Origin: a virus
IMG/VR virus record: IMGVR_UViG_3300028844_003248
Coordinates: 1 to 64,000 of that record
Length of the DNA: 64,000 nt
Direction: 5' to 3' (one strand)
A program made the position numbers and the translations under genes. Numbering within the stretch: position 1 is the stretch's first letter; every line of letters starts with the position of its first letter. The notes under the pieces are model-generated. The model searched no databases. It saw only the letters and a list, made by a program, of their open reading frames with translations, and had not been told where the DNA came from. This document shows positions 7,062-33,722 of the stretch, piece by piece.

Positions 7062-7642
7062 TGGGCATTCTAAAGACAGCCGCTGATACAGTCTATACGT
7101 TCAGATTTCTGGCGTTGCTAGTCACGCCATTTGAAAAGACTAAAGCATTTGAAGCTGGTATCATTGATGAAAAAGGTAAAAAGAATAAAAACTACCAACT
7201 TAACACTGTTGATAGCAGAGAAGCATATAGAAACTACTACACCAAGTTTCATAGGCTTGTGTTTAATATTAAGAAGTTGATCCCAGCAGGACGACTTGGG
7301 ACATATGCTGCAGCATTATACCTTTTAAAGGACCACTATTCTGTTCCAGAGATTGCTATCAGAAAAGGTTTGAAAAGTGTTGGGGCTACACCAGACGAAT
7401 ATTTGATAGAAGAAAATGAATGGTTTTTGTTAGAAGATGGTGCCATATCTCCAGGTGTATACCGAGTAAAGGGAGAGAAGGCTCTAAACCTCACAGGTGA
7501 TAATGTTGTGAGGTCGAGAGATCAGATCCGAATAGGAGAAGATAGTTTTCCAGTTGGAGATCTTTTTGGTATAAATATATACGAAGCAACGCATATAAAA
7601 ACAAATCAAAAGATTTACGTTACCACTCAGGAGTTAACATGA
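7061..7642 (+). CDS. Conserved T4-like phage virion-type protein, 193 aa
   Basis: Begins with a hydrophobic helix-like stretch (TAADTVYTFRFLALLVTPFEKTKAFEAG), then YTKFHRLVFNIKKLIPAG and TYAAALYLLKDHY, a set I recognise from conserved uncharacterised proteins in marine T4-like phages. The C-terminal third is beta-rich (PGVYRVKGEKALNL, DSFPVGDLFGINIYEA). Always seen next to the preceding gene in the phages I recall. Function unknown, probably structural. Confidence 0.6.
   Translation: MGILKTAADTVYTFRFLALLVTPFEKTKAFEAGIIDEKGKKNKNYQLNTVDSREAYRNYYTKFHRLVFNIKKLIPAGRLGTYAAALYLLKDHYSVPEIAIRKGLKSVGATPDEYLIEENEWFLLEDGAISPGVYRVKGEKALNLTGDNVVRSRDQIRIGEDSFPVGDLFGINIYEATHIKTNQKIYVTTQELT
7570..7577 (+). 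promoter_or_regulatory. Possible T4-type late promoter (TATAAATA)
   Basis: A perfect TATAAATA octamer lies inside the preceding gene, 62 bases before the start at 7639. T4 late promoters need only this -10-like box. Because the region is AT-rich the match could be chance; the conserved boxes at 61 kb are better placed. Confidence 0.3.
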
Positions 7643-18101: not shown

Positions 18102-18371
18102 ATGGACAATGTTTTTACGGCACTTGCCTTCCGTTCTCGTTGGGAAGACATCACACAATCGTTTCGTTTTTCAGAAAATGAGAGGCATCAAGGTACTATA
18201 GATAACTTGATGTGGTTTCTAAAAGAAGGCAAGAAAAGCAATGCTCGTAGAAAGCACTATAATGAAGCAGTGCATCTAGCGGAAGTGATTCTAGGACTCC
18301 ATGATAAAATTGACAAAGAACCCAAATCTGATAACAAACAAAAGAATCAGGGAGAACTGGTATCCTGTTAA
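18102..18371 (+). CDS. Small helical protein, 89 aa
   Basis: AGGAG precedes the ATG. The sequence is helical with a basic middle (KKSNARRKHYNEAVHLAEVIL). No known family. Its last 71 nt overlap the next gene, whose start is therefore less certain. Confidence 0.5.
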   Translation: MDNVFTALAFRSRWEDITQSFRFSENERHQGTIDNLMWFLKEGKKSNARRKHYNEAVHLAEVILGLHDKIDKEPKSDNKQKNQGELVSC

Positions 18372-19179
18372 CAAACGACAAAGGATCATAGCCAAGGCAA
18401 CAGTAGGCTGTGGTGATATTATGTTTGCCTATAATGTCGCCCATTTAAGATCCCATATAATAGAGAAGCCAGTGTATCTTGAGGTGCACTGGTTTTATCC
18501 AGAAGATTACTACCATCATTTTGAAGATCCAGAGACATTACCAGAGAGAGCCGAATATCTTCTAAAGTTCTACAATAATGATACAACAGATGTCATTATA
18601 GACCACAAATTTAACTCCACGGATTGGTCTCTCTATTATAAAAAGTTTATTGGGTTTGAAGATAAGTATGGAGAGGTTCGTAGAGGAACCAAAAGACCTA
18701 GTAATATTAAAATAAATGAGTGGCAGTTTAGAGATATAGATATCCCTGTTGTCAATAAGAAGATCACTATATGGCATTCTGCTTTAAACAGTGAGTTACC
18801 AAGACCCTTCAAGAGAACGTTTAACTTGAAAGAATGGGACCAAGTAAAGAAGATCTTAGAGATACAAGGTTATAGTGTTACGTTCATTGATTATAGAACA
18901 CCTATTCGAGAAGTTCTTTACCATATTGCTAGTTGCGAATGTGTGATCTGTTATGAAGGAATGTGGCACTACGTAGCCAAGAATCTAAACAAACCTATGA
19001 TTGTTCTCACCAAAGATTTGATTACAGGGTTTCACACACCTGCTGCAGTCAAATACAAGGTCAGAAAAGTCGAACAGCATCAGATCAGTTACTTTTATGA
19101 TATTGATAACAAGATAATCGAAGCCAAATCCATGGCTGAAAAACAAAGAAAAAAGTTGAGTTTACTATATGAAAATTGA
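18301..19179 (+). CDS. GT9/GT-B-like glycosyltransferase
   Basis: 292 aa. The early segment ATVGCGDIMFAYNVA resembles the GxGD(I/V)xxAxP opening of ADP-heptose:LPS heptosyltransferases. The C-terminal segment VICYEGMWHYVAKNLNKPMIVL looks like the nucleotide-binding part of GT-B enzymes. AGGA lies just before ATG 18301. First gene of the glycan island, overlapping the radical SAM gene by 11 nt. Sugar and acceptor unknown. Confidence 0.5.
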   Translation: MIKLTKNPNLITNKRIRENWYPVNKRQRIIAKATVGCGDIMFAYNVAHLRSHIIEKPVYLEVHWFYPEDYYHHFEDPETLPERAEYLLKFYNNDTTDVIIDHKFNSTDWSLYYKKFIGFEDKYGEVRRGTKRPSNIKINEWQFRDIDIPVVNKKITIWHSALNSELPRPFKRTFNLKEWDQVKKILEIQGYSVTFIDYRTPIREVLYHIASCECVICYEGMWHYVAKNLNKPMIVLTKDLITGFHTPAAVKYKVRKVEQHQISYFYDIDNKIIEAKSMAEKQRKKLSLLYEN

Positions 19180-20128
19180 TAGAGCGGTAATCGAGATCAA
19201 TGGTGGGTGTAACTACACTTGTCAGATGTGTCCACAAACAAATCCAGATGGAACACACGGTGCACGTGGTAAGAACTGGCTCAAGAAAATGTCACTCACA
19301 GAGTTTGAAGATAATGTTGCTCAGTGTGCAGAAGCAGGGTTGAATGTGGTAAACTTAGATGGTTCTGGAGAGGTAACACTGAACCGTAATCTGCCAGAAT
19401 ACATCAAGATCGTAAAGAAGTATGGTGCCAAGGCATTCATGTTCTCAAACGGTCTGCGTATGTCATATAACTTTATGAACGAGACTGTTGATGCTGGTTG
19501 TGATTTCTTTCGGTTTTCTATTATAGGATACAATGCTGACCTTTATTGGAAGTGGATGAATAGCCCATACTTTGGAAAGGTGATTAAAAACCTACATGAT
19601 ATGCAAGAGTATGTAACCAAGACAGGATCTGATTGTGTCGTTGCTACCTATCATCTTGTTCTGGATAATGACAATATCGACTATGAGGTTGAGCAATATA
19701 AAAAGATTGTAGAAGGTGCTGGAGTCAGTACAGAGATTTGGAAAATGCACAACTGGTCTGGTGTGTATGAACCAGAGTATGCAAGGAAAGGCAAACTCAA
19801 AACTTGTGGCAGACCGTTCTCACCTGACGTAGTAATCCGAGCAGGTGGTCTCGATGGTAACAAAGGTGCTATCCATCCTTGCTGCCAAGTATTGGGTAGA
19901 GATGATGAAGCCGTTCTGGGTCATATGAGCACGAACACACTTGAAGAGATCTGGTATGGCGAGCCTTATAACCAACTGAGAAAGCAGCACGAGATGGGAG
20001 ATTTTCCAGACTTCTGTAAAGGTTGTGATTTCTTGATTGATGATCCAGAGGTTCTTGTATACACCAATCATGATAGAAAAAACTACAAGATGCACGGTAC
20101 GGAATTTGACCTCAATGACTATCGCTAA
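19169..20128 (+). CDS. Radical SAM enzyme with SPASM-like C-terminus
   Basis: 319 aa. C14, C18 and C21 form the CxxxCxxC (CNYTCQMC) site for the SAM-cleaving iron-sulfur cluster. C-terminal cysteines (KTCGRP, HPCCQV, DFCKGC) fit an auxiliary-cluster SPASM-type domain. Such proteins modify peptides, sugars or cofactors; nothing visible fixes the substrate. It sits among glycosyltransferases and overlaps both neighbours. Confidence 0.78.
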   Translation: MKIDRAVIEINGGCNYTCQMCPQTNPDGTHGARGKNWLKKMSLTEFEDNVAQCAEAGLNVVNLDGSGEVTLNRNLPEYIKIVKKYGAKAFMFSNGLRMSYNFMNETVDAGCDFFRFSIIGYNADLYWKWMNSPYFGKVIKNLHDMQEYVTKTGSDCVVATYHLVLDNDNIDYEVEQYKKIVEGAGVSTEIWKMHNWSGVYEPEYARKGKLKTCGRPFSPDVVIRAGGLDGNKGAIHPCCQVLGRDDEAVLGHMSTNTLEEIWYGEPYNQLRKQHEMGDFPDFCKGCDFLIDDPEVLVYTNHDRKNYKMHGTEFDLNDYR

Positions 20129-20732
20129 AACACTACCGATCTACCAGATTGTAATACCAAACAATCCTATCTCAGAATACTATGCTGAGAAATCCGTGGA
20201 AAGTTTTAACAAGTTTGGGTACACAAACATCATACGTGTACATGCTAGTACCCCTGATGATATGCCAAACTATCTGTTTTTCAGTGACCAGAGAGAGTAC
20301 AGTAAAGAGCGTACACGAGAGTGGTTACCAGAAGAAAAAGCAATATGGTATTCTCATTATAGATGTTGGCATAAAATAGCAAAACAGAATGGCAAGCCAT
20401 TCGTGGGACCATCCCTTGTAATAGAACACGATTGCATTATGACAAAGGAACTGCCAGAACAACTTTTAAAGAAACGTCTTTGGTCGTTTGGTATGACCGA
20501 AGATAAGAGAAATCTAGCTGCTTTGGGTTACCTTATAAAGCCTTCAATGGCGAAAGAACTCTTGTTTATCAATCGAATTAATATGCCTGTTGATGGGTAT
20601 CTACATTCTAAGCAAGATCCTTGGTATCCTAGAGGTACATTTAAAAGCGAATATATAGATACAACCATATGCGCAGAGCATTATATTAATTCTGATATAG
20701 GCACAACAAAACCGACAATAGGTACAACATGA
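20115..20732 (+). CDS. GT25-type glycosyltransferase paralogue 1
   Basis: Start at ATG 20115, overlapping the radical SAM gene by 14 nt; the frame from 20037 runs further into that gene. 205 aa. YSHYRCWHKIA followed by LVIEHDC is the SHxxxW...(E)xD block of LOS/LPS family-25 glycosyltransferases. Two more copies of this block are in the proteins at 25858 and 27226, and in all three the acidic motif is EHD. The donor sugar is unknown. Confidence 0.6.
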   Translation: MTIAKTLPIYQIVIPNNPISEYYAEKSVESFNKFGYTNIIRVHASTPDDMPNYLFFSDQREYSKERTREWLPEEKAIWYSHYRCWHKIAKQNGKPFVGPSLVIEHDCIMTKELPEQLLKKRLWSFGMTEDKRNLAALGYLIKPSMAKELLFINRINMPVDGYLHSKQDPWYPRGTFKSEYIDTTICAEHYINSDIGTTKPTIGTT

Positions 20733-21523
20733 AACGATTGATCTATCAAGTCTACACTGGCAAGCCATCCAAATTATATGATTGGTGCACCCAGAGTGTA
20801 GAAGAATACGCAGAGAAAATAGGCGCAGAATACATTTGCCAGAGGCATCCTATCCTCAAAATAAAACCCGATGTTTTCCAAACCAATAGGAGCAAAGAAA
20901 GCTATGAGAAGTATGGTGGATTCCTTCCGATATATGAAAAAGAGAATGCGTTTGGATACCTCGACAGATTCGATCAAGTGGCAATTGTGGATGCTGATGT
21001 GTATATCAGGAGCAGTGCTTCATCTATCTTTGATGATCTACCTGTTTCTTATGACTTTGGCGCTGTAGTAGAAAGAGACATGCCACTCACTCCAGCATAT
21101 GTAAACAAGATTACAAACTACAGCAATATGCAATATGGACGTCTCAAAGATGTTGATTGGAAATGGAATAAGCGTGGTGGTGAGTTCATGAACATGGGTA
21201 TCATGGTAATGAATAAAAGCTTTGCCAAATACCTCAAAGGTCAAACCCCTAAAGAGTTCCTACAGCGCAGTGAGTTCCAAAGGTTTATCAACGGTGATGG
21301 TGCTTGGAAATGGTCTACTGATCAAACGCTGCTGAACTGGTGGATTCGTAAGGAGAAGATGAACATCAAAAATATGGATTGGAAATGGAATGGATTGTAT
21401 GCAGCAAATACCAAGATTGGATACTGCGATTTCGTGCATTTCTTCCTCAAAGATAAGTTGCCCAATAAGGGTGAGAATGTAAAAGAGTTGATGGAAAGTA
21501 TCGATGAGACTTATATCCCATAG
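20729..21523 (+). CDS. GT-A (GT8-like) glycosyltransferase, 264 aa
   Basis: VAIVDADVYI at about residues 84-93 provides a DxD motif for metal/nucleotide-sugar binding. Later STDQTLLNWW and the terminal aromatic, His-containing segment (CDFVHFFLKDK) match the GT8-like pattern. Overlaps neighbours by 4 and 20 nt. The acceptor is unknown. Confidence 0.6.
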   Translation: MKRLIYQVYTGKPSKLYDWCTQSVEEYAEKIGAEYICQRHPILKIKPDVFQTNRSKESYEKYGGFLPIYEKENAFGYLDRFDQVAIVDADVYIRSSASSIFDDLPVSYDFGAVVERDMPLTPAYVNKITNYSNMQYGRLKDVDWKWNKRGGEFMNMGIMVMNKSFAKYLKGQTPKEFLQRSEFQRFINGDGAWKWSTDQTLLNWWIRKEKMNIKNMDWKWNGLYAANTKIGYCDFVHFFLKDKLPNKGENVKELMESIDETYIP

Positions 21524-21941
21524 AGGCAATATCAACGGCCCAAAGCCCAAATATGAAAACACGACAAGTTATATACTCGAAGCTATTCAAGAAGGTTACG
21601 ATGTAGAGATAGACCTAAGAAGAGAAGATAATGCGTTGTGGTTGGGTCATGATGATAAATCAGAAAAGATCCGCACAAGCTTTCTGTATGACAATTTTGA
21701 CAAACTTTGGATTCATTGCAAAGACATGAGTTCTCTTTCATATCTCAACCGTTCGAGTCTCAACTACTTTTGGCATGAGAATGATGATTACACGATAACC
21801 TCACGTGGATGGATCTGGGCCTATCCTGGTAAACAAGTAGAAATACATACTGTATCAATAGCTGTTTTACCAGAGATAAATAAGACTAATGTAGACAACT
21901 TTTCAGGAGTTTGCAGTGATCAGATAGGACTTTACAAATGA
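21504..21941 (+). CDS. GDPD-like phosphodiesterase fold, short form, 145 aa
   Basis: MRLISHRGNINGPKPKYENT carries the HRG and EN of glycerophosphodiester phosphodiesterases. GYDVEIDLRREDNALWLGHD adds the E.D metal pair and the LxHD turn. The protein is about half the usual length, so it may be a minimal or derived TIM barrel. It is coupled (4-nt overlap) to the RuBisCO-like gene, hinting at a shared phosphorylated substrate; that link is inference. Confidence 0.6.
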   Translation: MRLISHRGNINGPKPKYENTTSYILEAIQEGYDVEIDLRREDNALWLGHDDKSEKIRTSFLYDNFDKLWIHCKDMSSLSYLNRSSLNYFWHENDDYTITSRGWIWAYPGKQVEIHTVSIAVLPEINKTNVDNFSGVCSDQIGLYK

Positions 21942-22996
21942 AATATTATACTGTTATATATGAAGTAGATGGACCAGACATTCAAAAGGCTGCTTGGAAT
22001 ATTGCAATCGGTCAGAGTATTGGTAATCCAAACATTCGATCTGAAATCGAAACAGCACAGAACATCAAAGATTTTGAAGCAACGATTGAATCCATCGAAG
22101 GTAATATTGTAAAGATAAACTTTCCTTTAGATGCATGGGATTGGCCTAATCTAAATCAACTTATGTGTGTTATCCAAGGTGGTCAATCAGACATTGAGTG
22201 TGTGCACCGATGTCGAGTCATTGATATCGAAGGTTTGCCATATATGAATGAACCAGTGCTTGGTCTCAAGAAATGGAAAGAGCGAGTCGGTGCAGAGAAT
22301 CGACCTCTATTTGGTGGTATTATTAAACCAAAATCTGGATTGACCCCAGACCAGATGATGAGTATTGTACAGCAGATGATTGATGGTGGTGCTGATTTTA
22401 TCAAAGAAGATGAGATCATGGCTAATAATAGCTACTATCCATTGAGTGCTAGAGTAGATGATGTAACGAAAGCCATCAAAGATTCTGGATGGAAAGGTGT
22501 ATATGCGTATTGTGTCAATGCAGATCCTTTACAGATAATCGACAATTTGAATACGATTAAAGAACATGGCGGTGAAGCATGTCATATCAACTTCTGGTCT
22601 AGTATGGGTGCATATACAACTTCCAATAAACTAGGTGTTGTAACACATTTTCAAAGATCTGGTATTCGAACATGGACAGATCCAAACAACAGATTTTCTA
22701 TTTCTTGGAACGTAATCGTAAAACTTGCTATTATGGCAGGTGTTGATTCCATGCACGTTGGTATGCTTGGTGGATACTATCCAGAAGGTGAGTCAGAAGA
22801 GGAGACGCATAAAGCAGTTTCTGATCTGATCAACACCGACCGAGTTGCTGCCTTGAGTTGTGGCATGAACCCAGAAATTGCAAGAGAGATCCGTGGTCTG
22901 ATTGGAAACGATTGGATGGCTAACATTGGTGGGTGGCTACATACTGGAGAAACCATCTATGAAAAAGTTTACGAAATGAGAAAGAGCCTTGAATGA
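21938..22996 (+). CDS. RuBisCO-like protein (RuBisCO large-subunit superfamily)
   Basis: 352 aa. K130 and K132 in GGIIKPKSGLTP match the KPKLGL strand of RuBisCO. DFIKEDE gives K156, D158 and E159, matching the carbamylated Lys and two metal ligands. H273 (MHVGM) aligns with the catalytic loop-6 His. SCGMNPE and NIGGWLHTG correspond to the phosphate-binding turns. The loop-6 lysine of true RuBisCO appears as Tyr (GGYYPEG), so carboxylation is unlikely and an enolase, isomerase or decarboxylase role is more probable. It shares 4-nt overlaps with a GDPD-like gene and a sugar nucleotidyltransferase. Confidence 0.82.
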   Translation: MKYYTVIYEVDGPDIQKAAWNIAIGQSIGNPNIRSEIETAQNIKDFEATIESIEGNIVKINFPLDAWDWPNLNQLMCVIQGGQSDIECVHRCRVIDIEGLPYMNEPVLGLKKWKERVGAENRPLFGGIIKPKSGLTPDQMMSIVQQMIDGGADFIKEDEIMANNSYYPLSARVDDVTKAIKDSGWKGVYAYCVNADPLQIIDNLNTIKEHGGEACHINFWSSMGAYTTSNKLGVVTHFQRSGIRTWTDPNNRFSISWNVIVKLAIMAGVDSMHVGMLGGYYPEGESEEETHKAVSDLINTDRVAALSCGMNPEIAREIRGLIGNDWMANIGGWLHTGETIYEKVYEMRKSLE

Positions 22997-23712
22997 AAAT
23001 TATATTACCTATGGCTGGCAATGGTCAGCGATTTTTTGATGCTGGTTATGATCTACCAAAACCCCTAATCGATGTCAAAGGTGCTCCTATGTTTAAAAGA
23101 GTGCTAGACAATATTACTGATGAATATAAAGGTGTAGAGGTTGTTGCAATCGTTAGACCAGACCACGTAGAGAAATATTCGATTGATCAAAAGCTAAAAG
23201 AAGCACTTCCTAACATTGAGATTGTAGTAACAGATGGACCAACCGAGGGTGCAGCTTGTACTGTAATGTTGGCGATTGACCAATATAGTGAAGATGAGGT
23301 TCTTATTGCAAACTGTGATCAGATCGCAGAGTTTAATGCCTCTATATTTCACACATTCAGTACAACATCTGATGGAACTATTCTAACCTTCTTTAGTGAT
23401 AACCCAGAGCCAAAACACTCTTATGTCACAGTTGATTCACAAGGGTTCCTTAAAGAACTCGCAGAAAAAAGAAAGATATCGGATGTAGCTACAGTGGGGG
23501 TTTATCACTTTAGTTCACAGCGAGAGTTTAGTAATGCAGTAAAAGCTATGATGGAAGCAGACGATAGGATCAATGGAGAGTTCTATCTCGCTCCTGTGTA
23601 TAACTATTACAGAGGAAATGTATCTTGTTTTGATTGTACTCAAATGTATGGTATGGGAACTCCAGAAGAACTAGAAGCATTCAAACAGACAGATTATTAT
23701 GAGGCACTATGA
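22993..23712 (+). CDS. Sugar-phosphate nucleotidyltransferase
   Basis: 239 aa. MKIILPMAGNGQRFFDAGYD then PKPLIDVKGAPMFKRVLDNI is the G-x-G-x-R...PKP signature of nucleotidyltransferases such as RmlA/GalU relatives. VLIANCDQI holds the metal-binding Asp. It should activate a sugar- or polyol-phosphate with NTP; which one is not visible. It follows the RuBisCO-like gene with a 4-nt overlap. Confidence 0.8.
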   Translation: MKIILPMAGNGQRFFDAGYDLPKPLIDVKGAPMFKRVLDNITDEYKGVEVVAIVRPDHVEKYSIDQKLKEALPNIEIVVTDGPTEGAACTVMLAIDQYSEDEVLIANCDQIAEFNASIFHTFSTTSDGTILTFFSDNPEPKHSYVTVDSQGFLKELAEKRKISDVATVGVYHFSSQREFSNAVKAMMEADDRINGEFYLAPVYNYYRGNVSCFDCTQMYGMGTPEELEAFKQTDYYEAL

Positions 23713-24431
23713 AACTAGCAGTATGTATGAACGGACTCTTCCGTAATCATGTGAAACCACATGTGGGAGTACTCCACAAAAGATTTCACGAAAAATTTCC
23801 AACAGCAGATTTTTACTACCACACGTGGACAGAGTTTGAAAATACTGTCCCATCGCAGTATAAAATGAATCAAGACTATTTCTTTACTGATCCAGAGCCA
23901 AAACTAAAATACCACCCTATCTCTGATTCTAAAACAAATTGCAAACACGGTAAATGGCATCCCTATAAATCAGGTAACTTAATGCGTCACAAGACCCAAA
24001 ATGGGTCCAAGCAGATCCTTGGATATGCTATGATGCACAAGAATATCCAGAAGGAATATGACGTTGTGATTCGTGCACGATGGGATACTGCACTTGATGA
24101 GCAAGTAGATTTTACTCCATATATAGAAATGGCTTACGAAGAAGGTCCAGTAGGGTTTTCTATAAGAGGAAAAAGAGGTCCATCTGGAAAAGACGGTAAG
24201 GTTAAAATTGTAGAAAAGACTGACTATGATCCAATGGATGATTGGTTTGGTTATCTACAAGATGCTTTGATTATACACAAACAAGAACATTTTGATCCAG
24301 ACTACGTTTTGCAGTTACATAAAGACGAAAACTTATGGCCTGCAGAATGGGGATGGTATCAAGTGATGAGTTTACCGTATGGTGATGATATTCATACGAG
24401 TTGTCATGGTGGTGCTTATATAGCAAGGTGA
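23709..24431 (+). CDS. Putative glycosyltransferase-like protein, 240 aa
   Basis: Begins MKLAVCMNGLFRN, has ADFYYHTWTE and YDVVIRARWDTAL, then WGWYQVMS near the end. This resembles phage and bacterial GT-A-like proteins of capsule loci, but I cannot name a family. Tightly coupled to the nucleotidyltransferase. Assigned mainly from context. Confidence 0.45.
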   Translation: MKLAVCMNGLFRNHVKPHVGVLHKRFHEKFPTADFYYHTWTEFENTVPSQYKMNQDYFFTDPEPKLKYHPISDSKTNCKHGKWHPYKSGNLMRHKTQNGSKQILGYAMMHKNIQKEYDVVIRARWDTALDEQVDFTPYIEMAYEEGPVGFSIRGKRGPSGKDGKVKIVEKTDYDPMDDWFGYLQDALIIHKQEHFDPDYVLQLHKDENLWPAEWGWYQVMSLPYGDDIHTSCHGGAYIAR

Positions 24432-24438
24432 GGTTAAA

Positions 24439-25122
24439 ATGATACCAAAGGTTTTTATACACATTCCCAAAAATGGCGGAATGACTATCAGGCGCAGTCC
24501 ACTACTCAGAGATAAAGTTCGTGTTGCGACCCCTGATATACACAAGTCCAAAGAATATTCAAACGCAGTTCTGACTACAATGAACAAAAACAATGATCAC
24601 CATGGCTATGAACATGCACGATGGCGAGATCTGAAAAGATCTGTGGTGGAAGGTTTTGGATCATTTGCCATTGTAAGAAACCCATGGGATCGTGTCGTTT
24701 CAAGATATTTCTTTGCAAAGAAAGTAATCGAGGTAGAGATGGGACAACCAGCATCGTATGCTGATGTCACTTCTTTTGAAGCATTTATCGAGGAAAGGCA
24801 TAAATGGGGCGATAAAGATTACATGTGGCATCGTGCAGTAAGAGGCTGGTATCCAGCACTTGACCATGTTACTGATGAAAAAGGTAATATCAAATGTGAT
24901 ATACTATCGTTTGAGGATTATAACTCGGATGTAATGGCATACTTTAATCTCAGTGAAATGTCCAGAGCACGTAATGTAACAGCTATGAACAAAGGGATAT
25001 ATACAGATGTATATACACCAGAGACAAGAAACATTATTGGTGATTGGTACAAAGATGATATCGAAACATTTGGATATGATTTTGGAACAGGTCCAACCAA
25101 AAATTTATGGAGAATGAAATGA
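24439..25122 (+). CDS. Sulfotransferase-family protein 1
   Basis: 227 aa. VFIHIPKNGGMTIR is the 5'-phosphosulfate-binding loop of PAPS-dependent carbohydrate sulfotransferases, and AIVRNPWDRVVSRYFF the 3'-phosphate-binding motif with Arg and Ser. It probably adds sulfate to a glycan. A second, divergent copy lies at 26597. Cofactor supply would come from the host. Confidence 0.75.
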   Translation: MIPKVFIHIPKNGGMTIRRSPLLRDKVRVATPDIHKSKEYSNAVLTTMNKNNDHHGYEHARWRDLKRSVVEGFGSFAIVRNPWDRVVSRYFFAKKVIEVEMGQPASYADVTSFEAFIEERHKWGDKDYMWHRAVRGWYPALDHVTDEKGNIKCDILSFEDYNSDVMAYFNLSEMSRARNVTAMNKGIYTDVYTPETRNIIGDWYKDDIETFGYDFGTGPTKNLWRMK

Positions 25123-25808
25123 GTGAACTGTTGAAAATCTTTGATAAACATGACTGCGACAAGGGTAGTCGTAAGCACTTTTATAATGAGGTCTATGAAC
25201 CGCACTTTGAAAAGGTGAGAAACGATCCTATTAATATCTTAGAGATTGGTGTTTTTCTAGGAGAGAGCACTGCTGCTTTTCATGAGTATTTTCCTAATGC
25301 TAACATCTATGGCATCGACATTTTTGTTCGTACAAGTCCAGAAGATTTAGAAATCTTGAAAGAGGAGAGGGTTCATTTTATCAAAGGTGATTCGATGGAC
25401 CCAATGATTAAAACACAGATTGAAGAAGAATGGCCTGGAGTTAAGTTTGATATCATCATTGATGATGGTGCTCATTGGCCTGAAGCAAATCGTCTCACGT
25501 TTAAACACACAGCACCATTTTTGAAAGAAAAGGGTAAATATTTTGTTGAAGATGTTTGGCCTATTGATGAAATGGGTATTGAAGATATCAATCATTATTG
25601 GATTAAAAAGAACCCAGACCGTTACAGCCAGACTAGCTATAAAAAGTTTTTAAATGAGTTTTCCTTTGGATATATCAGTGAATGGTACGATGTGAGACAA
25701 AAGACCAAACTTTCAAGTCTCGTAAAAAGAGGTAAGGGTAATAAACCAGAGTGGATTTCTGACAGCACTATTATGTTGATCGAACATGACCATACCATTA
25801 CCATTTAA
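25119..25808 (+). CDS. SAM-dependent methyltransferase (MycE/CmcI-like)
   Basis: Start at ATG 25119 overlapping the upstream TGA, with GGAG upstream; ATG 25107 is an alternative. NILEIGVFLGESTAAF is the SAM-binding glycine loop, ANIYGIDIF the acidic strand II end, and FDIIIDDGAHWPE the metal-linked Asp pair found in sugar O-methyltransferases of antibiotic pathways. It probably methylates a sugar hydroxyl. 229 aa. Confidence 0.7.
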   Translation: MSELLKIFDKHDCDKGSRKHFYNEVYEPHFEKVRNDPINILEIGVFLGESTAAFHEYFPNANIYGIDIFVRTSPEDLEILKEERVHFIKGDSMDPMIKTQIEEEWPGVKFDIIIDDGAHWPEANRLTFKHTAPFLKEKGKYFVEDVWPIDEMGIEDINHYWIKKNPDRYSQTSYKKFLNEFSFGYISEWYDVRQKTKLSSLVKRGKGNKPEWISDSTIMLIEHDHTITI

Positions 25809-25857
25809 TATTGACAAACCATCATTAGAAAAGGTACTCGAAAGGACAAAGTATAGA

Positions 25858-26619
25858 ATGGACGCTTATATCATATCAATCACCAATAATCATGAGAGCA
25901 CAGTTGCGACTCGTAGACTTATGCTTTCTATCAAAGACAGTAGATCCGATATCAATGCGTTTATCTATGATGCAGTCATTCCAAGAAATCTAAAAGAAAA
26001 CATGAGTAAGGTATTTCCTCAGTCGAATGTCCTACCACCAATCTCGTACACATATCCTATCGAAGGATCTCGCTTTGACATGAAATCTGGAATGCAGTTG
26101 TCTGCATATCCCACAGCACATCTAGACAAGAGGATCTCGTGTTTCATGAGCCACTATAATCTATGGCTCAAGTGTGTGAAAGATGATAAGCCTATCATGA
26201 TTCTAGAGCACGATGCTCAGTTTACTCGTAGGTTTGAATGGGACAAGATAGAAGATAGATTCAATGGAGATATTCTTGCACTCAACTCACCAATGGGAGC
26301 TACGAGAAAAGCTACTCTTTACAATGAAAAAGTAAAGGAACTCGTTGAGAAAAAGGTAAGAATGCAGAAGAAGAAGAGTGACGTCAACGTAGTCCTAGTG
26401 CCGTGGATTGATGACAAGATTATTCCACAAGGATTGCCTGGGAATAGCGCATATATAATCAAACCAGCAGGGGCAAAGAAGCTGATCGAACTTACATCAG
26501 AGCATGGCATATGGCCTAATGATGCTCTGATGTGCAAACAGTTAATGCCAGGGAAACTCCAACAACTCTATCCCTTTGTAACAAAGGTACAGAAAATTGA
26601 TTCGCATACATCCAAATAA
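25858..26619 (+). CDS. GT25-type glycosyltransferase paralogue 2
   Basis: Start taken at ATG 25858 (MDAYIISIT, the usual GT25 opening, preceded by AAGGAC). ATG 25786 would add 24 residues and overlap the methyltransferase gene. SCFMSHYNLWLKCVKDD and IMILEHDA form the family block. LPGNSAYIIKPAGAKKLIE and the later NDALMC fit the nucleotide-sugar end. 253 aa. Confidence 0.65.
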   Translation: MDAYIISITNNHESTVATRRLMLSIKDSRSDINAFIYDAVIPRNLKENMSKVFPQSNVLPPISYTYPIEGSRFDMKSGMQLSAYPTAHLDKRISCFMSHYNLWLKCVKDDKPIMILEHDAQFTRRFEWDKIEDRFNGDILALNSPMGATRKATLYNEKVKELVEKKVRMQKKKSDVNVVLVPWIDDKIIPQGLPGNSAYIIKPAGAKKLIELTSEHGIWPNDALMCKQLMPGKLQQLYPFVTKVQKIDSHTSK

Positions 26620-27229
26620 GTACATTCTAATACACATACCCAAGAATGCTGGTACAAGTATAAGAGAGAATGCGGATGGAAGACTTATACATGCCATTCA
26701 GAAACAGAATGTAACAAAGACGGTTACACCAGATCACCTTAACTTCATGGTGCATCACTGCCCAGCGACCTATTTACATAGGCAGTTGAAATCACATCCA
26801 AAGGTAGCAGTGATTCGTAATCCTTGGTCAAGGCTTGTATCTCTGTATGAGCATGCTGATCATTTAAGAGAACATGGTGTCGGTGATTATTTTCAGAGAG
26901 AAAAGATCTCTTGGGATGAGTTTATAGATCGTATAGATAGTTACATTCAAACATCAGTATTCTACTACAATCATCCCTATGACCATTTCGCATCACAGTC
27001 TGATTGGTTGACGCCTGAGGTTAAGCTTCTCAGATACGAACATCTGTCAGAAGATTATGAAAAACTTTTTAAAACACCTTTGACAACGATTGCAAACAAA
27101 GGGGTTTACAAAGAACACTATACATGTTATTATAGTAAAAACCAAATCGAAAAAGTTCGAGAGTGGTTTAGATATGATATTTACAAGTTTGGGTGTGACT
27201 TTGAAACCACGGCAAGGAACATAAGATGA
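26597..27229 (+). CDS. Sulfotransferase-family protein 2 (TTG start)
   Basis: 210 aa. ILIHIPKNAGTSIREN gives the phosphosulfate loop and VAVIRNPWSRLVSLYE the 3'-phosphate motif. No ATG precedes the P-loop in frame, so TTG 26597 (after AAAGG) is the likely start, overlapping the GT25 gene by 23 nt. Only distantly similar to the first sulfotransferase outside the two motifs. Confidence 0.7.
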   Translation: MIRIHPNKYILIHIPKNAGTSIRENADGRLIHAIQKQNVTKTVTPDHLNFMVHHCPATYLHRQLKSHPKVAVIRNPWSRLVSLYEHADHLREHGVGDYFQREKISWDEFIDRIDSYIQTSVFYYNHPYDHFASQSDWLTPEVKLLRYEHLSEDYEKLFKTPLTTIANKGVYKEHYTCYYSKNQIEKVREWFRYDIYKFGCDFETTARNIR

Positions 27230-27876
27230 GAAAAGCATACGTCATTACTATTCTCGATAATGAGAGATCCGTACAAGTGGCTGAACGGTGTATCAAGTCT
27301 GGTAAAAAACATGGACTTGAAATAGAAAAATGGAAAGCATATACACCAAACCGTGATCTGATAAATCGAGTTGCTTCTTTTGGTATCGACCCACGAGCAT
27401 TTGATGAGGTGTACTCTCGTACAGATAACTGTATGGCGGCATTTTTATCACACTATTCTTTGTGGGCGAAGGCTGTGAGGGAGAAGATCGATGTACTGAT
27501 CTTTGAGCACGATGCCGTGATAGTGAACGAAATCCCAGAAGTCAATGGTTACCAAGGGTGCATTACATTTGGAAAACCGTCATACGGTCAATACAACATC
27601 CCTAGATATCTGGGTGTACAAGAACTACAGCATAAGAGATATTTTGGTGGAGCACATGCCTATCAAGTATCGTGGCAAGCAGCCGAGGTTCTGATTAAGA
27701 AGGCAAAGAGCAAAGCGGCACCTACAGACGTTTTCCTTCACTTAGATAATTTTAGATTCCTACAAGAGTATTATCCATGGCCTGTTGAAGCAAGAGATAA
27801 CTTCAGCACAATCCAAGTTGAAAGAGGATGTTTGTCAAAGCACCAATACAATAAGGAAACCTATGACATTATCTAA
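27226..27876 (+). CDS. GT25-type glycosyltransferase paralogue 3
   Basis: 216 aa. MRKAYVITILDN opening, AAFLSHYSLWAKAVREK and VLIFEHDAVIV match the family-25 block, again with EHD. YQVSWQAAEVLIKKAKS corresponds to the C-terminal nucleotide-sugar pocket. Overlaps neighbours by 4 and 14 nt. Confidence 0.62.
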   Translation: MRKAYVITILDNERSVQVAERCIKSGKKHGLEIEKWKAYTPNRDLINRVASFGIDPRAFDEVYSRTDNCMAAFLSHYSLWAKAVREKIDVLIFEHDAVIVNEIPEVNGYQGCITFGKPSYGQYNIPRYLGVQELQHKRYFGGAHAYQVSWQAAEVLIKKAKSKAAPTDVFLHLDNFRFLQEYYPWPVEARDNFSTIQVERGCLSKHQYNKETYDII

Positions 27877-28504
27877 GCGAACATTTATGACAGGAGTTGA
27901 CAAGACCACTCAGTGGATGCTGCCATGGTTTATGAAAAACTTCAAGAAGCATAACAAAAAAGAAAAGATTGTTGTGTACGATTTTGGTATGACGCCTGAT
28001 ATGGCTGGTCAGTACGGTGCAGTGGAACTGAAAACAGTGGCAAGAGGTTGGTTCAAGAAACCAGCAGCGATGCTACATCAGAGTAAACTCTCAGAGAAAA
28101 CATGTTGGATTGATTCTGACTGTGAGGTGTTGGGTGACGTATCTGGCATATGGGATTGCATTGTACCAAACAAACTACTCATGGTTGAGGATAAACCTTG
28201 GTCAACACGTAAAGGAATTAAGTGGCACAACTCTGGTGTGGTAGGATTTGAAGGCACACCACAGATTCTTAGAGAATGGGAACACCAGTGTGCCGTACCA
28301 GCACAGTCTGGAGACCAAGAGGTGTTGCATCATATGATTGGTGACAACGATATAATGAAAATGGGTCTTATTGAAGATTTGCCTAATAAATACAACGTAC
28401 TCCGATTACAGAAGACAGATAAAACGGAGCCGAAAGAAAAACTCATTTTGCACCACACAGGCAGAAAAGGTAAACTGCATATCGAAAGGTTGATTAATGG
28501 CTAG
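27863..28504 (+). CDS. GT-A-like glycosyltransferase, 213 aa
   Basis: Start ATG 27863 with AAGGAAACCT upstream; the frame from 27785 lies inside the GT25 gene. CWIDSDCEVLGD holds a DxD motif and KWHNSGVVGFEG a later substrate-loop pattern, as in GT8-like enzymes. HHTGRKGKL near the end is a typical C-terminal His. Substrate unknown. Confidence 0.55.
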   Translation: MTLSKRTFMTGVDKTTQWMLPWFMKNFKKHNKKEKIVVYDFGMTPDMAGQYGAVELKTVARGWFKKPAAMLHQSKLSEKTCWIDSDCEVLGDVSGIWDCIVPNKLLMVEDKPWSTRKGIKWHNSGVVGFEGTPQILREWEHQCAVPAQSGDQEVLHHMIGDNDIMKMGLIEDLPNKYNVLRLQKTDKTEPKEKLILHHTGRKGKLHIERLING

Positions 28505-29099
28505 AACAGCACATATTATTGGAAATGGTGATAGAGCAGGAATGTTCAAGCAACCTCAAAAAGGTATCAAGATCACGTGTAACCTTCCTCCATTTAGTGT
28601 CGAAGGAGCATATGCAACGTGCCTTGTAGATTTCAAGATTATGCATGCCATGCATCTACAAGAGATTGCCATTCCTGGAGATTGGATCTTGGGGTTCAGA
28701 CCACACAAATACTTAGAGATGAACCCAGATCTTCGTATTCGATGGGCTTCTCAAATCCGAGATTACTTCACTGATAAACCACCATATGCTCCAACACTCA
28801 CTGATTGGAACTGTGGTCACATGGCTACACGATATGCTTGCCATCCAAATAAGATTGGTGCCGATACCATTCACATGTATGGGTTTGATTCTATCTTTGA
28901 TATGAACCTCAAGAGTTGTTCAGATTTCTACTTGAACAGCGATAGATCTGATATGAACCAAGTAAGGCTGGCTGATAACTGGCGTCCTATCTGGGTAAAG
29001 CTATTCGAAGAGTTTCCAGACAAGCAGTTTGTTCTGCACCACAATCATACTAAAGCTAGAATTAATCTACCAGAGAATGTTGAAATTGTCACAAAATGA
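28497..29099 (+). CDS. GT42/MptE-like Rossmann protein, 200 aa
   Basis: AHIIGNGDRAG at the N-terminus resembles the GNGPS loop of GT42 sialyltransferases and the related MptE-like fold. CLVDFKIMH and ADTIHMYGFDSIFD match later strands of that fold. Given a KDO-type module in the same island, a nonulosonic- or ulosonic-acid transferase is an attractive but unproven idea. Confidence 0.45.
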   Translation: MARTAHIIGNGDRAGMFKQPQKGIKITCNLPPFSVEGAYATCLVDFKIMHAMHLQEIAIPGDWILGFRPHKYLEMNPDLRIRWASQIRDYFTDKPPYAPTLTDWNCGHMATRYACHPNKIGADTIHMYGFDSIFDMNLKSCSDFYLNSDRSDMNQVRLADNWRPIWVKLFEEFPDKQFVLHHNHTKARINLPENVEIVTK

Positions 29100-31039
29100 T
29101 AAGAGTGCTATACTCTAATCCTGCCGCTGAAGAAAGGCAGATATGGTTGCCCTATGCGTGGGGTAGATTTAGAGAGTATTGCGACTACCAAAGTAAACAC
29201 GATCTAACGCAAGTAAACTGGCTACCACCTCTCATCGAAGGTTGGTTTGATGTGGATCGACTTATAGAAGAGCACGACCTAAAAAATGTTGATGTACTAC
29301 TATTATCTTTCTATGTCTGGAACGAAGAGCGACAACTGGAAATCGCCAAGAGAGCAAGAGCGGCAAACCCTAATGTCCTTATTCTTGCTGGTGGACCACA
29401 AGCCCAATACAGACCACACCAGAACACAAAAGCATACGAAGTCTGTGATTGGATCACTCCTTGGGAAGGTGAAGATGTTCTTGCAGAGGTTCTTTATCAA
29501 AAAGTAAATAGGCAGATAGTCAACCATAATCTACTTGTCGATCCTAAAAATCCTGTAGATCAAGTCAAAGCGAAACGGCTCTTTTTAAAAGAGTTTCGAT
29601 CTCCATATAAGCTGTACTGGAATGAATATGTCCAGATAGGTAAAACTATTAAAGAGAGACATGGTAAGATTTTTACGATGTGGGAAACAAATAGAGGTTG
29701 CCCATATAAATGTGCATTCTGTGATTGGGGTTCTGCTACGTCAGATAAGATTCGTAGACTGACTGAAGATACCGTCATGGAAGACCTTGAGGCATTCTCA
29801 AAACTAGGTGTCACCTATGTGTTCAATGCCGATGCTAACTTTGGTATATTCAAGGATGATATCAAGTACATTGAGAGAGCGGTAGAACTGAAGAAGACTA
29901 CAGGCTATCCACAAGAGATTCAATTTTCGGCAGCGAAGAACAAGAAAGAGGTAAGCAACCAAGCACACAAGATTCTGTATGAAGCCAACATGTGTAATGG
30001 TGCTCAGATATCCTATCAACATACAGACGATGCTGTACTTGATGCTATTGACCGTTCTAATATCAAGCAAGACAAGCTGCAAGAAGAACTGAACGAAGCT
30101 TTCAAGAACAATATCCCTCTTGTTGGCGTATCCATCTTAGGGAATCCAGGTGACACAGTAGAGAAGTGGAAACACAATCTTGGCTATATGCTGGAGATTG
30201 GGTTTCATCATGATCTACGTGTCCATGATTTTATGTTATTACCGAATGCTCCAGCAGCAGATCCAGAATATATTGACAAGTATGGTATCAAGACCACTCG
30301 CTTGAGAAATGAGAACTCTACATTCAGAACTCTATATCACTCTGAGTTCGTCACAGAAACCAATACGTATTCTAAGGATGACTATGCTGATATGCAAGCA
30401 TTCACACAGTTCTTGATTGGATTTCACATACTCAATGTGAGTAAGTTTGTGGCACACTTTGCTCGACATTATTACACTATTGATTATGCAACTTTTTATA
30501 GTAAGCTATCTCAGATGCCTACATGCCAGAGGATATATAATGAGGTAAAGGATCATATGAAGAAGTACGTGGCACATGAGGTTGACTCGAAAGCCATGGT
30601 GTTTCGTGGAAGTAAAATACCAGCAGATGTGTATGTGAAATATAGAGCGGTAGAGAACCTTGCTGACATTCTAAATGAGATTGTTGATCTGATGCTAGAA
30701 CTGACTCCTCTGTCCGAAGATAAGATGAGAGATATGGTAAAGGCACAATACATGACAATCGTTTCATGGAGAAAGCCAAAACCTCTCACGATGAAATATA
30801 ACTTCAGTGAGATCTTTAATATGCTCAACAACCTAATCCCAGGCGAACGGAGCAATCTGATGGACATCCAACCAAACGAACGAGAGGTTGAAATAAATAC
30901 ATTTAAAGTGAGCACTCAGTTCGAGGAGAACTTGCTAGAGTTCTTCGACTATGAAAGATTTAAAAACTTATTCGACCTCAAAAATCAACCGAATAAACGT
31001 GAGGGTATGTCTCACTATCCACAGTCACTGGAGTTATAA
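29096..31039 (+). CDS. Cobalamin-binding-type radical SAM enzyme, 647 aa
   Basis: Residues about 50-150 form a B12-binding-like Rossmann domain (VDVLLLSFYVW, VLILAGGPQAQ). C202, C206 and C209 (GCPYKCAFCDWG) bind the 4Fe-4S cluster. The roughly 400 remaining residues hold the barrel and a helical C-terminal domain. Enzymes of this class methylate unactivated carbon or rearrange small molecules. It starts the unit with the aminotransferase and carbamoyltransferase (stop-start overlaps). Confidence 0.78.
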   Translation: MIRVLYSNPAAEERQIWLPYAWGRFREYCDYQSKHDLTQVNWLPPLIEGWFDVDRLIEEHDLKNVDVLLLSFYVWNEERQLEIAKRARAANPNVLILAGGPQAQYRPHQNTKAYEVCDWITPWEGEDVLAEVLYQKVNRQIVNHNLLVDPKNPVDQVKAKRLFLKEFRSPYKLYWNEYVQIGKTIKERHGKIFTMWETNRGCPYKCAFCDWGSATSDKIRRLTEDTVMEDLEAFSKLGVTYVFNADANFGIFKDDIKYIERAVELKKTTGYPQEIQFSAAKNKKEVSNQAHKILYEANMCNGAQISYQHTDDAVLDAIDRSNIKQDKLQEELNEAFKNNIPLVGVSILGNPGDTVEKWKHNLGYMLEIGFHHDLRVHDFMLLPNAPAADPEYIDKYGIKTTRLRNENSTFRTLYHSEFVTETNTYSKDDYADMQAFTQFLIGFHILNVSKFVAHFARHYYTIDYATFYSKLSQMPTCQRIYNEVKDHMKKYVAHEVDSKAMVFRGSKIPADVYVKYRAVENLADILNEIVDLMLELTPLSEDKMRDMVKAQYMTIVSWRKPKPLTMKYNFSEIFNMLNNLIPGERSNLMDIQPNEREVEINTFKVSTQFEENLLEFFDYERFKNLFDLKNQPNKREGMSHYPQSLEL

Positions 31040-32214
31040 TGAAAAAAGAGATGACATTCTGGAGAGACTCCATTGAGAAACAGAATGACCACACTCATAT
31101 AAAGCACATGCACAAGTGGACCTTCACCACTGAGGGGGGTAAAGAATACCTCGATCTGGCATGGGGAAATACTGCACCTTTGGGATCACAGAATAGTAGA
31201 ATGGCACAAGCCGTTCATGAAGCTGTTTATCACTATACAAGACTTCCATCTACACGTGGTCTCACGAACCACATGCAAGAAGAGTTGAGTACATTCTTGT
31301 GCAAAGACGATTGGGCAGGCTATACTTGGGCTTTGTCTGGATCTGATGCTGTAGATCAAGCAATCATTATTGCCGATGAGTATTGGAAGACATTGAATAA
31401 AGTAAAGCCAAGCATCGTGTCTATGAGTCCTAGCTACCATGGAAACACATATCTTTCTAGATCCATGGGTGATATGAATGTTCCTTTGGGAAGAATGTCT
31501 CGTACAAGATTACTCAAACCTATCGAAGGTATGGGAGTAGAAGAAGAGAAGAAAATGTTGTTCAGATTGGAACGAGAGTTCAAGTCTGGCGATGTTGGTT
31601 CCTTCATTATCGAACCAGTAATGGTGCATGCTGGGGTTCTGTACCTATCAAACTTCGCTTGGATTAACATCCGCAGATTGTGCAACGAATACAAGGTTAT
31701 TCTCATTACTGACGATATATCTTCTGGCTGTGGAAAACTTGGATCTTGGCATTCTACACACACCGCACAGCATGGAGTGCAGAGTGACATAAACATCTTA
31801 GGCAAAGCTTTGACAGGGGGATACGCTCCACTTGCCATGACCTTCTCAAGAGACTTCATTTGGGAGAGGGTTGGAACGAGGTGCATGTTTGGAAACAGCC
31901 ACTATCCGTTTATGGGTGGAGTAGCTGCTGCCCTAGAGTACATAAAGATCGTCGAAGAGCAGTTTTTGTTCTACAAGGTAGTGAAGGATAAGAAGCGTAT
32001 GGTAACACATATGTTACCAAGTAACACCAACTCCATAGGACTACTCAATCATATATATTTTGATGAGCCGAAACACTACAAAGAAATACTGGAAGCTGGT
32101 ATATTCACACCAGTAAGAGAAGACAAAGTAAGTGGTCTGAGATTTGTAATACCTATCGGTGCTGACGAAGAATACTGGAATAAACTACTTCCTAGATTAG
32201 AAAGATTGCTATGA
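31039..32214 (+). CDS. Class III PLP-dependent aminotransferase
   Basis: 391 aa. LSGSDAVDQAI and SYHGNTYLSRS fit the phosphate-binding and substrate loops. LITDDISSG includes the pyridine-binding Asp225, and K256 in LGKALTGGYAPL is the PLP lysine. It is closest in layout to glutamate-1-semialdehyde/ornithine-type enzymes. It may install an amino group on a sugar or polyketide-like intermediate; the substrate is unknown. Confidence 0.82.
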   Translation: MKKEMTFWRDSIEKQNDHTHIKHMHKWTFTTEGGKEYLDLAWGNTAPLGSQNSRMAQAVHEAVYHYTRLPSTRGLTNHMQEELSTFLCKDDWAGYTWALSGSDAVDQAIIIADEYWKTLNKVKPSIVSMSPSYHGNTYLSRSMGDMNVPLGRMSRTRLLKPIEGMGVEEEKKMLFRLEREFKSGDVGSFIIEPVMVHAGVLYLSNFAWINIRRLCNEYKVILITDDISSGCGKLGSWHSTHTAQHGVQSDINILGKALTGGYAPLAMTFSRDFIWERVGTRCMFGNSHYPFMGGVAAALEYIKIVEEQFLFYKVVKDKKRMVTHMLPSNTNSIGLLNHIYFDEPKHYKEILEAGIFTPVREDKVSGLRFVIPIGADEEYWNKLLPRLERLL

Positions 32215-33722
32215 GATACTGTGGATATTCGGAACTCTTTCATGACGCTGGACTTGCGTTCGTAGAAGATGGTGAGATAGAACTGGCTGTTCATGCAGAA
32301 AGGTTTTCTGGCATGAAATTTGATCACAGTCTGACACAAGAGATGTTTGACATGATTCGTTGGATGGATCATGTTACGTTCTATGAAGATCATGATCTAA
32401 GAAACAAGTCAATATATCATAAAGGTGCCATATCAAGCTTTAGTCATGATGTTTGGATTGATGCTATGTTCCGACCTGTAAGCAATGGTAATCTACAAAA
32501 TCAAAACAACATATCGAGTAGTCTTGTCTATGATGATTGTATTACCCACCACCAAAGTCATGCAGCAATGGCATACTATACCAGACCTTGGGAATCATCT
32601 GAGGACACCGTAATACTTACCATTGATGGTATGGGAGAAGCACAATCAGTTTGCATTTATGACCATAACTTGAAACTACTGGACCACTGGAACAACCCAA
32701 AAAGTATTGGAGTTTACTATACACAAACAGTCAAATCTACTGGCTATAGAACGATGGAAGATGAGTATGTGATTATGGGACTTTCTGCTTACGGCAACAA
32801 TGAGTGGGGAGATGAGTTCATAAAGAAGTTTGATGCGCTACCACCGTATGACCCAGATGAGCCTGATATTACTACACGGATGATGTACGAGTCCATGCGT
32901 CAACATTGTAGGTGGATTCATAACCGAATCAAAAAATCCAGCCACGAAAATTCTGCTGCATCAATACAGAAGTTTGCCGAACACTTTATCATTGATCGAG
33001 TGATCGAGGCACGAAAATATGGTAAGAAGTTATGCTATGGGGGCGGCGTTGCTCAAAACGTTATTGCCAACTCTATGATAAAAGAACTGGGTATTTTTGA
33101 CGATATCTGGATTGCGCCTTCTCCTACTGATGCTGGATCTGCACTTGGTGCAGCAGCACACTCATACTGCACTGCAACAGGGAATACTAGGATCAACTGG
33201 AAAAACTCCTTCCTTGGCACAGAGATAGAGGGAGATCCGAATCCCAAAGCCATAGTCGAATACATACTCGAACACAAGGTATGTGGACTTGCTACAGGTA
33301 AGGCAGAGTATGGTCCAAGAGCACTTGGTAACAGAAGCTTGATTGCAGATGTGAGGTATGACGTCAAGGATACGGTCAATGAAATCAAACGCAGACAGAA
33401 GTTCAGACCGTTTGCCCCTGCAATCATGGAAGAGTTTGTTGATGACTATTTTGATGGTCCAACGAATGAATACATGCAGTACCAAGCAAAGGCTTTACAC
33501 GACTATAAGTCAGTGACACACGTTGATGGCACAGCAAGAGTTCAAGTCGTCAAGAAGGATTGCGGCACAGTTCTCAGATCCGTTCTAGAAGAGTACTACG
33601 AAAAGACAGGAGTACCAATGCTGTTGAATACCTCATTGAATATTAGAGGGAAGCCTATGGTCAACACAATGAAGGATGCTCGACGTTGGCAAGCCAAGTA
33701 TGGCGTCAAAGTCTTCTCTTGA
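32211..33722 (+). CDS. NodU/CmcH-family carbamoyltransferase
   Basis: 503 aa. HHQSHAAMAYYTRPW, ILTIDGMGE, LCYGGGVAQNVIAN and EYGPRALGNRSLIADV are hallmark segments of O-carbamoyltransferases (NodU, TobZ), which use carbamoyl phosphate and ATP to carbamoylate sugars or antibiotics. The C-terminal TsaD-like half appears complete (KFRPFAPAIMEE). Overlaps the aminotransferase by 4 nt and is last in its unit. Confidence 0.85.
   Translation: MRYCGYSELFHDAGLAFVEDGEIELAVHAERFSGMKFDHSLTQEMFDMIRWMDHVTFYEDHDLRNKSIYHKGAISSFSHDVWIDAMFRPVSNGNLQNQNNISSSLVYDDCITHHQSHAAMAYYTRPWESSEDTVILTIDGMGEAQSVCIYDHNLKLLDHWNNPKSIGVYYTQTVKSTGYRTMEDEYVIMGLSAYGNNEWGDEFIKKFDALPPYDPDEPDITTRMMYESMRQHCRWIHNRIKKSSHENSAASIQKFAEHFIIDRVIEARKYGKKLCYGGGVAQNVIANSMIKELGIFDDIWIAPSPTDAGSALGAAAHSYCTATGNTRINWKNSFLGTEIEGDPNPKAIVEYILEHKVCGLATGKAEYGPRALGNRSLIADVRYDVKDTVNEIKRRQKFRPFAPAIMEEFVDDYFDGPTNEYMQYQAKALHDYKSVTHVDGTARVQVVKKDCGTVLRSVLEEYYEKTGVPMLLNTSLNIRGKPMVNTMKDARRWQAKYGVKVFS

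Follow-up and report, generated by a model that had tools for sequence, protein, structure and literature searches.

A phage RuBisCO-like protein paired with a sugar nucleotidyltransferase, and its proposed enolising role in nucleotide-sugar synthesis

The 64,000 bp stretch of DNA analysed here (the window) makes up most of the 65,539 bp IMG/VR virus record IMGVR_UViG_3300028844_003248, and carries within a glycan operon a gene for a RuBisCO-like protein (RLP). Sequence comparison places this RLP in a large, so far unnamed family that forms a supported clade found in phages and scattered bacteria and archaea, and a functional linkage between the RLP and a sugar nucleotidyltransferase is conserved in many loci. 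The RLP is proposed to be an enolising sugar-phosphate isomerase or epimerase feeding nucleotide-sugar synthesis, a proposal with about an even chance of being correct. The fuller picture is offered more tentatively, namely that a RuBisCO-fold isomerase/epimerase without carboxylation supplies a dedicated nucleotidyltransferase across hundreds of viral contigs and, sparsely, in bacteria and archaea, and has been replaced by RpiB in one phage lineage. The RLP gene overlaps by exactly 4 nt both the GDPD-like gene upstream (21504-21941) and the nucleotidyltransferase gene downstream (22993-23712).

21938..22996, + strand: RuBisCO-like protein (RLP), 352 aa, ATG start; assigned from homology, residues and predicted fold.
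22993..23712, + strand: nucleotidyltransferase of the nucleoside diphosphate (NDP)-sugar pyrophosphorylase type; PF12804/PF00483-like, GxGxRF...KP motif, nearest solved relative 4evw.
21504..21941, + strand: mini-GDPD-like protein, 145 aa; phrog_34507, with HRG, EN, ExD and GHD motifs.

The RLP matches Pfam PF00016 with E = 2.7e-27, the N-terminal domain PF02788 more weakly, and the NCBIfam form III RuBisCO model with E = 6.4e-30. RuBisCO chains in the PDB are matched directly by the sequence, and a profile of 30 RLP relatives aligns over its full length with a PDB form III RuBisCO (1.6e-55). An AlphaFold2 model built from a 93-row alignment has a predicted local distance difference test (pLDDT) score of 94.5 and a predicted template modelling score (pTM) of 0.92, and supersedes an unusable model from a six-sequence alignment (pLDDT 52). 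The top Foldseek match is the form III RuBisCO of Pyrococcus horikoshii [2d69] (E 5.8e-27, template modelling score for the query (TMq) 0.87, 23% identity), followed by other RuBisCOs and RLPs. The 93-row alignment held true RuBisCO rows that could bias the model toward the RuBisCO fold; judged on the sequence matches, the homology stands on its own, independent of the model. Among the viral folds of BFVD, a search with the model turned up none that was RuBisCO-like (best TMq 0.45). The RLP is predicted to have the two-domain fold of the RuBisCO large subunit and is assigned to the RuBisCO superfamily. An earlier reading of the window from its letters alone (the sequence-only reading) had proposed this membership, which is borne out by the Pfam match, the full-length profile and the fold; the reading frame, the residues and the 4 nt overlaps are exactly as it gave them, and the unrelated fold that it named as the outcome against it was not obtained.

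Correspondences between the active site of RuBisCO and the window RLP are as follows.

K130 and K132 of the KPK motif: RuBisCO K175 and K177.
K156, D158 and E159, in the run K156/E157/D158/E159: the RuBisCO metal site K201/D203/E204.
R240: RuBisCO R295.
H273: RuBisCO H327.
Y280: replaces RuBisCO K334 of loop 6.
S307-C308-G309: RuBisCO S379-G380-G381.
G331-G332: RuBisCO G403-G404.

Y280 was placed on K334 by profile alignment to form III RuBisCO. In a deep alignment from which five plasmid-derived rows were removed, all 72 RLP family members carry K175, K177, K201, D203, E204, S379, G381 and G403 (RuBisCO numbering), and 71 keep G404. Equally fixed (72/72) are six substitutions, E60 to G, T65 to N, N123 to G, H294 to Q, K334 to Y and G380 to C. 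Two positions vary within the family, R295 being K, R or S and H327 being H or Q. The RuBisCO rows of the same alignment are canonical at the tested sites, and the OiaX-like rows are so at most of them; patterns that differ from that of the RLP family are seen in MtnW and in OiaX itself. Since the metal site and K175/K177 are intact while K334, H294, N123, E60 and T65 are lost, the metal-carbamate machinery for enediolate formation appears to be retained and the residues for handling CO2 and the carboxylated intermediate are gone. Carbamylation of K156 is predicted from the conserved K201/D203/E204 positions, and by the established RuBisCO mechanism the retained set would support enolisation. 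E60, T65, N123, H294 and G380 are also changed, unlike in OiaX-type proteins and MtnW, so known RLP activities cannot simply be carried over. With its substituted catalytic residues and its position outside forms I-III, the window protein classes on sequence as an RLP (form IV in the broad sense), and is predicted not to be a carboxylase. The sequence-only reading had the metal triad correctly placed and the loop-6 lysine correctly lost, and both hold throughout the family; the remodelling is far wider than it described, extending to E60, T65, N123, H294 and G380.

There is next to no likelihood that the RLP is a true viral RuBisCO fixing CO2 onto ribulose 1,5-bisphosphate (RuBP). Automated homology does match it to the Pfam and NCBIfam rubisco models, and viral rbcL has been reported as a CO2-fixation gene (PMC8506154, PMC12615777), but K334, H294, E60, N123 and T65, which are essential or handle RuBP or CO2, are replaced in every member, and the NCBIfam equivalog cut-offs are undershot by hundreds of bits. 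It is just as hard to credit that the protein is the methionine-salvage enolase MtnW or another RLP of the methylthioadenosine pathway. MtnW belongs to the same superfamily, its models match by profile, and it too lacks K334; however, MtnW carries K in place of N123 and has no equivalents of K177, R295 and H327 (at these four positions the window RLP has G, K, R and H), the NCBIfam MtnW cut-off is not reached, the clustered RLP loci showed no recognisable methionine-salvage neighbours, and MtnW lies on a separate branch of the tree. Membership of the true RuBisCOs, MtnW or OiaX was rejected from the tested residues together with tree position.

In a maximum-likelihood tree (quick search, midpoint root), a branch with a Shimodaira-Hasegawa-like approximate likelihood ratio (SH-aLRT) support of 100 separates the 39 sampled RLP members from MtnW, from the OiaX/four-carbon-acid RLPs and from RuBisCO forms I, II, II/III and III. 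The lowest overall identity within the family is ∼33%. IMG/VR was scanned with successively wider query profiles, at most 80 loci being retained from each scan; the number of contigs with RLP relatives rose from 5 to 35 and then to 352, and these contigs reach 518 and 306 kb. Their viral status is that of the IMG/VR classification, which is backed in the window by structural genes. A scan of genome contigs gave 23 matches, 21 of them close to the family, and the cellular carriers are SAR11, other Alphaproteobacteria, Crocinitomicaceae, Elusimicrobia, Azospirillum, Legionella, Verrucomicrobia and DPANN archaea. As a correction to the sequence-only reading, the protein is neither a one-off nor confined to phages. 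The family was detected in 1/385 genomes of the class of Azospirillum and 2/297 of the SAR11 order, and in the phyla of Legionella and of a Sphingobacteriales metagenome-assembled genome (MAG) the seed genome was the sole member, the other matches being outgroup RLPs. That the family is common in some host group was rejected from these class, order and phylum scans; it is rare in cells. A tblastn search of INPHARED phages gave no match, no phage record there having a detectable copy, and blastn with a distant RLP relative found nothing.

Several individual sequences are unusual. The Sphingobacteriales MAG contig [JAAXIF010000028.1] (L042) carries a 70% identical RLP with phage-like neighbours, and this 142 kb contig may be a phage binned in the MAG. 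The RLP gene is broken by stops or a frameshift in two viral contigs (L036 near 5950-7128 and L019:909-1980), possibly by decay or assembly error. Very divergent RuBisCO-like proteins on long branches were found in Acetivibrio alkalicellulosi (L063) and in a DPANN archaeon (L222), and fit poorly with all sampled groups.

One nucleotidyltransferase family is present in 90 of 99 viral RLP loci, no more than 5 genes from the RLP gene, and the loci without it are mostly at contig ends. A small cupin was found in 49 and the mini-GDPD in 45 of the same 99 loci. The gene order varies, with the nucleotidyltransferase either 5′ or 3′ of the RLP gene and the cupin often in between, indicating that the association between RLP and nucleotidyltransferase has survived rearrangement. 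The linkage to a sugar nucleotidyltransferase noted by the sequence-only reading is thus conserved across many loci. The nucleotidyltransferase is also near the RLP gene in SAR11, Legionella, Elusimicrobia, Verrucomicrobia, Nanoarchaeia and Azospirillum; the Legionella, Elusimicrobia and Verrucomicrobia pairs have no cupin or mini-GDPD, and the order in Azospirillum oleiclasticum is RLP, cupin, nucleotidyltransferase. The closest relative of the nucleotidyltransferase is the uncharacterised NDP-sugar pyrophosphorylase 4evw (3.8e-35), followed by mannose-1-phosphate, heptose-pathway and glucose-1-phosphate enzymes, and the context of RLP loci includes epimerases, glycosyltransferases and methyltransferases. 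In three Legionella species (L058, L060 and L061), genes of one LicD-like family divergently adjoin the RLP-nucleotidyltransferase pair; the LicD assignment was tested in L058 (PF04991, E 1e-42), and hints at a phospho-sugar or polyol donor in Legionella. In the SAR11 loci L049-L052, L055, L056 and L159, two nucleotidyltransferase paralogues flank the RLP gene, and the upstream one, which has no GxGxRF/KP motif, may be inactive or repurposed.

The constant pairing, and the degenerate SAR11 paralogue, could also be explained if the RLP had no catalytic role and served as a scaffold, or if it regulated the nucleotidyltransferase. This is very unlikely, as the metal ligands and catalytic lysines are 100% conserved though identity drops to ∼33%, and purifying selection is strong (nonsynonymous and synonymous rates, dN and dS, of 0.017 and 0.72 between L003 and L004, relatives with 96% protein identity).

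In the proposed pathway, the RLP would perform only the enolisation half of RuBisCO chemistry. A Mg-bound enediolate would be made from a keto-sugar phosphate, most likely in the C4-C7 range, and then re-protonated by the RLP, so that the enzyme would act as an epimerase or as an isomerase of the aldose-ketose or keto-shift kind. Its product, directly or after the action of a phosphomutase or phosphatase, would be converted to NDP-X by the adjacent nucleotidyltransferase, with HAD domains acting on the position or removal of the phosphate, and the operon glycosyltransferases would move the NDP-sugar onto a glycan of the host surface or the virion. The activated sugar or polyol that the sequence-only reading proposed as product is plausible.

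The main rival is decarboxylation, in which an OiaX-like decarboxylase or decarboxylating lyase would act on a beta-keto acid sugar phosphate and the shortened or branched sugar would then be activated by the nucleotidyltransferase. This is unlikely. By profile, the nearest characterised relatives include the OiaX-type RLPs (NCBIfam NF042437, E 3e-27), plasmid OiaX is ∼29% identical to the RLP, both have G at the N123 position, and decarboxylation also passes via an enolate. However, OiaX has K334 and H294 but no K177, the reverse of the RLP family, the OiaX-type loci examined adjoin oxidoreductases or four-carbon-acid sugar kinases and not nucleotidyltransferases, and no uronate-forming step is consistently conserved beside the RLP gene.

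A related module in cultured Synechococcus phages contains the nucleotidyltransferase and mini-GDPD genes and no RLP gene. Phages Bellamy and SynMITS9220M01 encode a nucleotidyltransferase fusion (L229:2172-3329 and L230:3775-4932) that carries an RpiB/LacAB domain at its C terminus (PF02502, E 4e-32) and lies next to the family cupin; both records list the fusion only as 'phosphatase'. The nucleotidyltransferase-RpiB/LacAB fusion is shared by ∼70 IMG/VR loci. Among 292 loci, RLP is present in 141 and RpiB in 71, never together, and the fusions comprise 70 nucleotidyltransferase-RpiB and 61 nucleotidyltransferase-HAD proteins. The near-full-length RpiB domains retain HNxxN in 72/72 cases and CxTGxG in 59/72. 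Gene orders typically run nucleotidyltransferase, cupin, RLP in the one case and nucleotidyltransferase-RpiB, cupin, mini-GDPD in the other. An N-terminal HAD domain is attached to the nucleotidyltransferase of B23, of S-CAM9 and of a few RLP loci, and such fusions are consistent with a phosphate-handling step. Nucleotidyltransferases with an N-terminal HAD domain resembling beta-phosphoglucomutase were seen in L226:5631-7004, L227:4299-5684, L121:3084-4466, L135, L143 and L144, with or without an RLP. The partner exchange is a lead to the reaction class of the RLP and not a proof of it; a function of the RpiB type (aldose-ketose isomerase) is suggested by one line of evidence, this exchange of gene modules.

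The same module bears on a third possibility, that the RLP makes or breaks carbon-carbon bonds (aldol/retro-aldol reaction or hydrolytic cleavage), yielding a branched sugar phosphate or one of unusual length for activation. A Mg-enediolate in a TIM barrel is capable of aldol chemistry, and genes for a class II aldolase and a transketolase occur in the cyanophage clusters that share this nucleotidyltransferase and mini-GDPD. Against this, we know of no classical aldolase in the RuBisCO superfamily, and the related module without RLP has an RpiB isomerase domain, making this proposal decidedly unlikely, below decarboxylation.

Several observations weigh against the isomerase/epimerase proposal. 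The reaction is predicted from homology and gene context. Retention of K177 and the variation of R295 to K and H327 to Q are also compatible with another enolate reaction, for example decarboxylation, and the GDPD and cupin, for which the proposal does not account, are absent from some RLP loci. In the nucleotidyltransferase tree the RpiB fusions form a single clade nested among RLP-linked sequences, so the exchange counts as one evolutionary event, and repeated exchange was not supported. The mutual exclusion of RLP and RpiB reaches significance in the cupin-anchored set (p 6e-5), for which an RpiB-type cupin had served as the seed, but does not in the GDPD-anchored set (p 0.38). It could be that RpiB and RLP each provide a different sugar and that neither takes the place of the other.

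The window phage is, by its gene content, of T4 type, encoding a gp32-like single-stranded DNA-binding protein, a DNA end protector, and baseplate hub, tube cap and wedge proteins, as well as PhoH and ribonucleotide reductase. The RLP gene lies in the following operon.

18301..33722, + strand: 18-gene glycan operon, with genes overlapping or ≤7 nt apart.
20729..21523, + strand: putative glycosyltransferase, cluster 'GTa4'; no Pfam match, function inferred from context.
23709..24431, + strand: putative glycosyltransferase-like protein, cluster 'GT5'; no Pfam match, function inferred.

The operon includes genes for radical SAM/SPASM, GT25 and putative glycosyltransferase proteins, the mini-GDPD, RLP and nucleotidyltransferase, and a sulfotransferase, a methyltransferase, an aminotransferase-like protein and a Nol-like carbamoyltransferase. 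In the subclade of the window, the GTa4 gene is upstream of the RLP gene in most loci and the GT5 gene is directly 3′ of the nucleotidyltransferase gene. The label mini-GDPD was given because of the motif pattern, the sequence relation to GDPD being weak; a solved GDPD was matched at only 7e-4 over the first 53 positions, and library searches returned only phrog_34507, with no meaningful Pfam match. The protein (21504-21941) and its relatives, which have HRG, EN, ExD, GHD, HxK and FWHExD motifs, may be a whole minimal barrel. A dihydroorotate-dehydrogenase-like protein, recognised from sequence only, is encoded in the phage glycan operons of L001 (8076-8777) and L004 (8075-8776).

To our knowledge, the characterised members of the RuBisCO superfamily are either carboxylases or enzymes of methionine salvage or sugar-acid catabolism. 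If the proposal is correct, RuBisCO-superfamily chemistry would gain a new branch, a role in nucleotide-sugar biosynthesis disseminated chiefly by viruses. With the invariant signature of six residues and the nucleotidyltransferase partner, RLP function could be tested directly on two small proteins. In viral ecology, RLP genes may be labelled rbcL by automatic annotation and counted toward viral CO2 fixation, and E60G, T65N, N123G, H294Q, K334Y and G380C provide a simple filter against such mislabelling.

Viral rbcL homologues have been read as auxiliary metabolic genes for CO2 fixation (PMC12607003, PMC8506154, PMC12615777), and the statement of the sequence-only reading that no phage example was characterised must be limited to the RLP family and its glycan context. 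Among these studies, one found that its gene clustered with 'RbcL-like' proteins, and a soil rbcL1 was reported to be active with rbcS, so that rbcL1, compared by description only, is probably a different, true RuBisCO. A literature search, with subscription papers and preprints mostly outside its coverage, found no paper tying a RuBisCO-like protein to a nucleotidyltransferase or glycan synthesis. The Global Ocean Sampling report (PMC1821046) describes 65 marine RuBisCO homologues that fit no known form and make up new groups, and whose non-conserved sites include N123 and H327; these (IV-GOS) resemble the RLP family by description alone, and identity between them is only a lead.

Form III RuBisCO (P. 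horikoshii 2cwx/2d69, Thermococcus kodakarensis 1geh) shares with the RLP the two-domain fold, KPK, the carbamate/Mg site and the SxG and GG phosphate loops. However, it is ∼420-445 aa in length compared with 352 aa, the RLP has lost E60, T65, N123, H294, K334 and G380, and the RLP lies in a glycan operon. The OiaX-type 3-oxo-isoapionate-4-phosphate decarboxylases (NF042437) are likewise RLPs of the superfamily with intact K175 and K201/D203/E204, but have other gene neighbourhoods and form a separate clade, and the window RLP scores 95.5 bits against the equivalog score of 700 bits. The MtnW/YkrW 2,3-diketo-5-methylthiopentyl-1-phosphate enolase resembles the RLP in being non-carboxylating and without K334, and performs enolisation only, but belongs to a methionine-salvage operon. 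The modules of phages Bellamy and SynMITS9220M01 share the nucleotidyltransferase family, cupin and mini-GDPD with RLP loci, and differ in having RpiB in place of the RLP.
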